43,408 nt of DNA from Microcaldota archaeon (GTDB lineage Archaea; Micrarchaeota; Micrarchaeia; Micrarchaeales; Micrarchaeaceae). The translations under genes were made by a program, and so were the position numbers. The DNA lies in assembly GCA_021827525.1 (NCBI GenBank), contig JAKAVJ010000030.1, forward strand, positions 1-43,408, read 5' to 3'. Numbering within the stretch: position 1 is the first letter of the stretch; each line of letters begins with the position of its first letter. Of this stretch, positions 5,914 to 15,062 are shown in pieces. The notes beneath the pieces were generated by a model. It worked only from the letters and a program-made list of their open reading frames with translations, did not search any database and was not told the origin of the DNA.

Positions 5914-6094
5914 AGCCATTATGCACTTGAAAGCGAGGTTTAGGATTGCAGCATCTATCGAAAAAATAGGTGTGCGCCATGTCATTTATGTTTTTGTAGC
6001 AAGCAGCTGCACTATTATTGGACGGCCCTATAAACAATTAAGAATATATATTTGAAAATAGATAATTATTCTTACATTTAAATAGGGTGATATT

Positions 6095-6670
6095 ATCACT
6101 AGAGCAAATAAACAGACCTACCTCGTAGAATCAGATGCTGTTAAAGATATAATAAAGGCTGTTAAAGATATAAAGAAGATTGAAGGGGCGTTATCCAAGA
6201 TAAAGAAGATTGAAGGGGCGTTATCCAAGAGTGGCTTTAGCGACAATCTGAATGCAGATATCGCATACATGATTGGGGAAAACCTCTCAAATGGCTTTAT
6301 TGAGGATGCTGCAGAATTGCAGAAACTGCAGACTAAGTACTATAAAGTACACCCGCTTTCGAAAGAGGCTGAAGAGACGAAAAGGTGCGCAAGAGAGGGC
6401 ATAGCGAAATTAATACGCCGCGGGGACAGTATAAATATGATAGTGTGCGCAGCACAGGACCATGACATCCCGTTAGAAGATTTGCTCCCAGAAGCGAAAG
6501 AGGCTTTTGAAGAGGCCGCAACAGGGGAAGATTACGAGAGGGCAGGAGCCATAGCAAAGAGGTTTGGATTTGATAAAAAGGATGTGACGGAGCTAGTGCA
6601 TAGTGCGTTTTTGAAGCGCCATAAGAGGAATACCTCCAATTTAAAAACATTAGACGACTTCAAGGAATAA
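6095..6670 (+). CDS. Hypothetical helical protein; frame is open upstream of the called ATG (6269) to a probable non-standard ATC (6095) or ATT (6092) start
   Basis: Continuous frame TRANKQTYLVESDAVKDIIKAVKDIKKIEGALSKIKKIEGALSKSGFSDNLNADIAYMIGENL...; GGTGA at 6086-6090 with 4-nt spacer; in-frame TAG at 6083. Confidence 0.55.
   Translation: MTRANKQTYLVESDAVKDIIKAVKDIKKIEGALSKIKKIEGALSKSGFSDNLNADIAYMIGENLSNGFIEDAAELQKLQTKYYKVHPLSKEAEETKRCAREGIAKLIRRGDSINMIVCAAQDHDIPLEDLLPEAKEAFEEAATGEDYERAGAIAKRFGFDKKDVTELVHSAFLKRHKRNTSNLKTLDDFKE
6170..6229 (+). repeat. Exact tandem duplication, 2 x 30 nt (in coding frame)
   Basis: ataaagaagattgaaggggcgttatccaag at 6170-6199 and 6200-6229; a 21-nt near-repeat (gctgttaaagatata...) precedes it at 6137-6178. 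Confidence 0.97.
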
Positions 6671-13962: not shown

Positions 13963-14071
13963 TGGCGGACCTGGCGGGATTTGCATCGCGATAGCCTTTG
14001 CTAGGGCGATTTTGAACCCGCAACCGCGTGGTCCGAAGCCACGCGCGCTATCCAAGTTGCGCCACAGGTCC
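13963..14071 (-). tRNA. tRNA-Arg (anticodon TCG) with encoded CCA and ~31-nt insertion in the T-loop
   Basis: Exons read GGACCTG TG GCGCAACTTGGATAGCGC G CGTGG-CTTCGGA-CCACG CGGTT GCGGG-TTCAAAT-CCCGC CAGGTCC G CCA once the T-loop insert is removed. Confidence 0.88.
13980..14010 (-). other. tRNA intron in T-loop (boundaries ambiguous by up to 3 nt because of AAA at both junctions)
   Basis: TTCAAA[ATCGCCCTAGCAAAGGCTATCGCGATGCAAA]T between T-stem strands GCGGG and CCCGC; insert contains ATCGC/GCGAT stem. Confidence 0.82.
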
Positions 14072-14077
14072 GCACAG

Positions 14078-14788
14078 TTAAGCAGATGTTTCGCCAAAGT
14101 TAAAAAGCTTTGTCTGCCTTATGTTCCCCAGCGTCTTCCAGTACTCGCGTATGTGCATGCTGAGCTCCTTGTCCTTCATGTTCTTGCGCACCGCGTCTAT
14201 AGTGTGGTAATCCGAGGGATAGCCAGAGCCCAGTTCTATAGAAAGAGATGCGCTGAGCTGGTCCATCGCCCTGTCGCGCTCGACCTTTGCCATTATGCTT
14301 GCGGCTGAAACGACAGGATATCTGGAATCGGCCTTGTGTTCAGCCACAACCGTAGTGTATTTGACGCCCTTGAGCCCTTTGGCGCGTATGCCGTATACCT
14401 TGGTCGGCTTGTTGCTCAGCATGTTGACGCGTATGCCGAACTTCTCGGCTATCACGTCAGGGGAATCGAGATAGAGAAAGTTCACTTCTTGGTCAAATTT
14501 GTCGAAAAGCTTTGCGAAATGTATGGCTTCAAGCTCGTTCAATGATATTCCCGCCTTCATAGCAGAATTGATCTCTGCCGGGGCTATCCTGTCTATCTTC
14601 ACGTCCTCCGCTATGTCAAGTATCGAGCTGTAGAGTTCGTCGCGGCGCTTCCTGCTCAGCAGCTTAGAATCGCGCACACCTATCTCAGGCAGCTTGTGGA
14701 CCATCGCTTTCTTGACAGAGACTATCGAAATCACGAGCGGCCCTATCAGAGCACCCCTTCCTGCCTCATCCCCGCCGCAAAGGATTAT
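14078..14788 (-). CDS. rnhB: Ribonuclease HII; start extended to ATA at 14788 (ORF-track GTG start at 14734 would delete the DEAGRG active-site motif)
   Basis: Upstream in-frame translation ILCGGDEAGRGALIGPLVISIVSVKKAMV...; RDSKLLSRKRRDEL; YLDSPDV; VSAASIMAKVERD; GSGYPSD; GGTGA 4 nt before ATA. Confidence 0.9.
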   Translation of the reverse strand: MILCGGDEAGRGALIGPLVISIVSVKKAMVHKLPEIGVRDSKLLSRKRRDELYSSILDIAEDVKIDRIAPAEINSAMKAGISLNELEAIHFAKLFDKFDQEVNFLYLDSPDVIAEKFGIRVNMLSNKPTKVYGIRAKGLKGVKYTTVVAEHKADSRYPVVSAASIMAKVERDRAMDQLSASLSIELGSGYPSDYHTIDAVRKNMKDKELSMHIREYWKTLGNIRQTKLFNFGETSA

Positions 14789-14801
14789 GGAATCACCGCA
14801 C

Positions 14802-15062
14802 TCATAGCCCCTTAAGGTCGACCATTATGTAGTCGGCCACAGCGGTGACGGAATTATACGGTATCTTCACGTGGCCGTCCTGGGCATCGAGCTTGCTCGA
14901 TACGCTGCTATCCATATTCGGCTCAACAAGTATGTAGTTTATCTTGCCGGTTATTTCATTAACATCGGCATCTATAAACCTGCCAACATCAAATCCACTG
15001 ACACTTATCACTTTCTTGCCGACTAGCTGTTTCGCTATGATAAATTTTACCATGCACGTCAC
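14802..15062 (-). CDS. PRC-barrel domain protein
   Basis: VKFIIAKQLVGKKVISVSGFDVGRFIDADVNEITGKINYILVEP; start ATG at ~15053 follows GGTGA. Confidence 0.8.
   Translation of the reverse strand: MTCMVKFIIAKQLVGKKVISVSGFDVGRFIDADVNEITGKINYILVEPNMDSSVSSKLDAQDGHVKIPYNSVTAVADYIMVDLKGL

Follow-up and report, generated by a model that had tools for sequence, protein, structure and literature searches.

The rnhB locus

The window, by which we mean the whole analysed stretch of 43,408 nucleotides from a Microcaldota archaeon of the order Micrarchaeales, carries a gene for RNase HII (rnhB) on its minus strand and, on its plus strand, a second gene with a similar start region. Its relatives place the organism in Candidatus Micrarchaeota. 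The features considered here are as follows.

14078..14788, minus strand: rnhB (RNase HII), 236 aa counted from the ATA, with its stop codon TAA at 14080-14078; assigned by PF01351 and structure alignment
14786..14788, minus strand: putative start codon ATA, placed by the ATG/AUH column in relatives and by synonymous-only change from there onward
14792..14797, minus strand: Shine-Dalgarno-like GGTGAT, its GGTG at -9 from the ATA
14732..14734, minus strand: GTG, the first standard in-frame start, downstream of the catalytic motif
14825..14827, minus strand: TAA, the last upstream in-frame stop, read from the sequence
14802..15062, minus strand: PRC-barrel gene upstream of rnhB (PF05239, 31.2 bits)
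6095..6670, plus strand: the window's second gene with a putative AUH start (AUH being AUA, AUC or AUU), ATC at 6095 and GGTGAT at 6086

In frame, the leader of rnhB reads TAA (14827-14825) TGG TCG ACC TTA AGG GGC TAT GAG TGC GGT GAT TCC ATA (14788-14786) and continues ATC CTT TGC GGC GGG GAT GAG GCA GGA AGG GGT. The first-pass annotation had observed that the called GTG start at 14734 falls behind the DEAGRG motif, that no ATG, GTG or TTG occurs between the in-frame TAA and this motif, and that a GGTGA stands four bases before the ATA. Re-reading of the minus strand of the window bore out all three observations, with the GTG located 12 codons past the catalytic Asp codon and the GGTGA at 14797-14793. 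Thirteen bases separate the end of the PRC-barrel gene from the ATA.

Counted from the ATA, the protein matches PF01351 with 132.5 bits over positions 1-198 of the 199 in the profile (residues 4-219), and a solved archaeal RNase HII aligns with it in register, the numbers of Asp7 and Glu8 being identical. The catalytic acids Asp7, Glu8, Asp105 and Asp135 of the Thermococcus enzyme align with D7, E8, D108 and D154 of the window protein, all of which are invariant among 18 relatives; the DEAGRG motif is invariant throughout the order. The open reading frame is thus that of a complete RNase HII, including the N-terminal catalytic DEAGRG.

Comparison with congeneric genomes

Two congeners, G001 and G002, the latter with an RNase HII 96% identical to the window protein, contain the identical ATA ATC CTT TGC GGC GGG and have no standard start either. 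Over the 18 codons from the ATA to the codon before GTG 14734, the window differs from each congener by four synonymous and no non-synonymous changes, whereas the 12 codons upstream of the ATA show two to three non-synonymous changes, among which G002 has an in-frame TGA stop nine codons upstream of the ATA. Therefore, coding constraint in this frame starts at or about the ATA. GTG 14734 is an internal Val codon, kept in both congeners.

The start column across the order and beyond

We compared rnhB in 75 genomes from two families of the order, mostly draft or metagenome assemblies, using the codon six before the catalytic Asp (column -6) as reference. This column contained ATA in 29 genomes, ATT in 16, ATC in 12, ATG in 12, GTT in four and other codons in two, so that 69 of the 75 had ATN (57 AUH and 12 AUG). 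Columns -5 and -4 are likewise rich in Ile codons, as expected of a first beta strand, but held ATG in none and about one of the genomes, respectively, in comparison with 12 at column -6, which argues for column -6 as the start. Initiation at the ATA or at the adjacent ATC, as proposed at first pass, is therefore supported and can be narrowed to ATA 14788 over ATC 14785. When orthologues were compared for an ATG at this position, as was also suggested there, members of the genus had ATA and the closest sister genera had ATG, and each showed a start context of its own. Beyond what had been noted earlier, the alignments indicate that such a start typifies the whole order, that its codon can be any AUH, and that other genes, one of them in the window, are likewise arranged.

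No standard start was present in the rnhB frame of 36 of the 75 genomes, and some in-frame standard start in the other 39. In about 21 genomes, an in-frame GTG overlaps the Shine-Dalgarno element and could serve as the start, and we therefore regard the 36 as the safe count. In L003, L007 and L008, a stop codon immediately precedes ATA ATA AT(A/C), and in L241 the stop lies one codon farther upstream; by their sequences, these four loci seem to leave hardly any choice of another start. GTT occupies column -6 in L029 and L320, both without any standard start. On the tree of the order, a minimum of six changes between AUG and AUH and 28 changes among the four codons were counted.

The pattern is largely confined to this order. 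AUH was found at column -6 in 47 of 61 genomes of the order versus two of 48 from other orders of the class (p = 1e-15), and an in-frame standard start was lacking in only two of 48 sampled genomes of the other orders and in two of 59 usable loci outside Micrarchaeota. The other orders have a mixture of codons at column -6, so the fold does not demand Ile in that place. A genus from a different order of the class (L231, L302-L305), in which all five genomes have ATA CTC preceded by GAGGTGAT or GAGGTGGT (GAGGTGATACC or close variants), is on this sequence evidence a second occurrence of the AUH start in rnhB; other genera of the same family have rnhB with ATG. Nearly all archaeal rnhB genes examined outside Micrarchaeota have a standard start near the motif. 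In L126 (Sulfolobales) and L100 (Njordarchaeota), rnhB was observed with neither a standard start near the motif nor a GGTG element.

The Shine-Dalgarno element

A GGTG located 8-10 nt before the start was found in 49 of the 57 genomes with AUH versus two of the 12 with AUG (p = 7e-6, ignoring kinship). Among independent pairs on the tree, none of the six ran in the opposite direction (median p 0.125), the element accompanying AUH wherever the two members differed in it. The weaker start codon of rnhB thus appears to be accompanied by a stronger Shine-Dalgarno element, an association that reaches significance in the count over genomes and not in the independent tree pairs alone. Among the sampled relatives, genes with ATG likewise have their GGTG most often at -9. 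The 3' end of 16S rRNA was looked for in the sampled stretches and was not found; the assumed partner of GGUGAU is the general archaeal anti-Shine-Dalgarno sequence. In P. abyssi, the element GGAGGUGAU pairs with nine 16S rRNA bases (PMC6237735).

A model for initiation of rnhB

Based on these comparisons, rnhB is very probably translated from AUA 14788 by means of the GGUGAU Shine-Dalgarno element and the ordinary initiator tRNA. The GGUGAU, 9 bases upstream of the AUA, would position the 30S subunit, and bases 1 and 2 of the AUA would pair with the CAU anticodon of the ordinary initiator tRNA, the third base being tolerated, giving a predicted N-terminus of Met-Ile-Leu-Cys-Gly-Gly-Asp-Glu. 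For rnhB throughout the order, base 3 of the start codon would be nearly free (AUA, AUU, AUC, AUG and rarely GUU), given a strong Shine-Dalgarno element; rnhB genes with AUG would mostly have lost this element, and other genes of the lineage would occasionally be initiated in the AUH manner. The position of the start, its conservation, the absence of standard starts and the link with the Shine-Dalgarno element are documented by the alignments, and from these we infer decoding as Met by the initiator tRNA, presumably with a low yield, and any regulatory role through aIF1.

Several causes for such a start were considered and rejected. The G009 genome contains a canonical initiator tRNA (A1-U72, GGG/CCC anticodon stem), and 57 of 60 relatives have an aIF1 gene, which makes it unnecessary to invoke a special initiator or the loss of a fidelity factor. 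Loss of aIF1 is ruled out as the cause by the same count. A special initiator tRNA with anticodon UAU was likewise discarded: the tRNA-Ile(UAU) of G009 is elongator-like and stands beside the canonical CAU initiator, and the AUU, AUC and GUU starts speak against the idea as well. Strict stop-start coupling to the PRC-barrel gene was rejected because the distances are too variable: nearly every genome of the order has this gene in front of rnhB, with conserved C-termini and gaps of 5 to about 130 bases.

Alternative explanations

Three other readings would dispense with an AUA start by the ordinary route. Entry from an upstream frame, by a -1 frameshift (from the small frame at 14805 or from the GTG within GGTGAT) or by reinitiation at ATAA, draws on a six-codon frame of the genus, ATG AGT GCG GTG ATT CCA TAA, which overlaps the PRC-barrel stop in an ATGA and whose own stop overlaps the ATA in an ATAA, and on out-of-frame mini-ORFs ending at the start in 35 of 57 cases versus 0-18 of 57 at control sites. 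This excess, however, follows automatically from GGTG at -9 plus ATAA; moreover, a slippery heptamer was not observed, the small frame is missing from L007, the distance to the PRC-barrel gene varies too widely, as described above, and reinitiation would itself start on AUA, leaving this reading highly unlikely. The same small frame also bears on a sequencing or assembly error, in which position 14788 would really begin an ATG or an extra base would join the frame to ATG 14805: this out-of-frame ATG, 17 bases upstream, overlaps the PRC-barrel stop, and ATG does occupy the start column in 12 relatives. Yet G001 and G002 share both the ATA and the spacing, the frame of the out-of-frame ATG ends in them at the same TAA, and the 36 genomes without a standard start include several in long contigs. 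A base error, which the first-pass annotation had wished to see checked, is in our opinion scarcely credible and, by the sequences of the congeners, already refuted. That only a truncated protein from GTG 14734 is produced, or that the gene is dead, has in its favour that this GTG is the sole start permitted by the standard rules, but the product would have neither Asp7 nor Glu8, and the purely synonymous change in the preceding 18 codons among congeners, together with the invariance of DEAGRG across the order, makes the chance of it practically negligible.

Initiation at AUA 14788 through the Shine-Dalgarno element may be supplemented by a regulatory function, in which AUH would be a device for weak initiation sensitive to aIF1 or stress. 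Such a role would accord with the retention of AUH (six AUG/AUH changes against 28 among the four codons on the tree), with the contrast to NMD3, which has a standard start in 27 of 30 genomes, and with the bacterial precedents infC and sigR, which are IF3-sensitive (PMC5472188). On the other hand, AUG in 12 genomes implies that AUH can be dispensed with, the data fit relaxed selection in a gene of weak expression equally well, and rnhB is not known to be a target of aIF1. We consider this addition possible but rather doubtful. The same tentative standing applies to its broadest form, an order-wide AUN (rarely GUN) rule under a strong Shine-Dalgarno element, with the AUH of rnhB held throughout as aIF1-mediated translational control; if true, this would be an archaeal counterpart of the infC case.

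Other genes with putative AUH starts

The second AUH-start gene of the window has the start region GGTGAT ATT ATC ACT AGA, and its called ATG at 6269, the first standard start, lies 58 codons on and would cost the protein 58 residues. Relatives of this gene were found only in G009 and G039 among 60 genomes; the orthologue in G009 reads GGTGAT AGT ATT ACT AGA, with no standard start nearby. In G010, the AUH layout was also observed in NMD3, PheT and an NTP-transferase; in G009, an EamA transporter gene probably has it too, to judge from its sequence. The standard starts of NMD3 are mostly ATG in a fixed column, and exactly this column holds ATA, with a GGTG element before it, in G010, G033 and G018 (three of 30 genomes).

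The genes with this layout came from sampled sequence of the window's genome, G009 and G010, about 930 kb in all. A scan for ORF extensions was swamped by antisense frames until these were filtered out, and counting the codons that follow GGTGA in every frame was uninformative, internal codons being dominant. An unbiased scan for AUH after GGTG revealed a weak enrichment of ATA (7 of 608, p = 0.055), so AUH starts would be rare genome-wide. As far as these sequences indicate, AUH starts are tolerated now and then across the lineage and are the rule in rnhB.

Relation to known systems

The start of infC, encoding IF3, is AUU in E. coli and AUC in Streptomyces (PMC5472188). Like infC, rnhB is one particular gene with an AUH-type start kept across related species. 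In contrast, bacterial infC encodes the very factor that rejects such codons, which creates a feedback, whereas rnhB belongs to an archaeal order and its product is RNase HII and not an initiation fidelity factor. In Streptomyces, sigR starts with GUC, which was shown experimentally to set the ratio of SigR to RsrA (PMC5472188). Both sigR and rnhB have a conserved non-standard start overlooked by annotation, and the two rnhB genes with GUU and no standard start add to the likeness; the ratio-setting role, however, is established by experiment for sigR. Compensation of weak start codons by stronger Shine-Dalgarno elements was described for GUG and UUG by Belinky et al. 2017 (PMC5622118), who found a change from AUG to AUU once in 61,358 ancestral AUG starts. 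The rnhB genes resemble that pattern in pairing a weaker codon with a stronger element, but differ from the GUG/UUG cases in that AUH would outnumber every other start of this one gene within the order. The RNase HII of Thermococcus (PDB 1io2, 2dff) is of the same family, with Asp7 and Glu8 at the same positions counted from the AUA; the window protein differs in its start, which would not be AUG, GUG or UUG, and, relative to the solved RNase HII, in an insertion of about 16 residues around residues 127-142. In the literature searched, we found no conserved AUA/AUU/AUC start of one gene across an archaeal order and no paper on start codons or Shine-Dalgarno sequences of Micrarchaeota, most subscription journals lying outside the search.

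Gene finders restricted to AUG, GUG and UUG cut the catalytic residues off the RNase HII of this lineage; databases therefore probably contain "inactive" fragments as well as missing genes, of rnhB and of others. In addition, the repeated interchange of AUA, AUU, AUC and AUG in a fixed column amounts to a natural experiment on archaeal start stringency, and the strengthening of the Shine-Dalgarno element as the rnhB codon weakens would make the roles of aIF1 and of pairing testable with a defined leader.

tRNA genes and AUA decoding

No match to TiaS, the agmatidine synthase for tRNA-Ile2, turned up in 117 genomes of the class. Since G009 also carries a tRNA-Ile(UAU) gene (L131:10558-10634), AUA decoding in the class seems, from these gene contents, to dispense with agmatidine. 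In the window, rnhB is followed directly by a likely tRNA-Arg(UCG) gene (13963-14071, minus strand), which was not called by ARAGORN and carries in its T-loop an insert of about 31 bases resembling a non-canonically placed tRNA intron.
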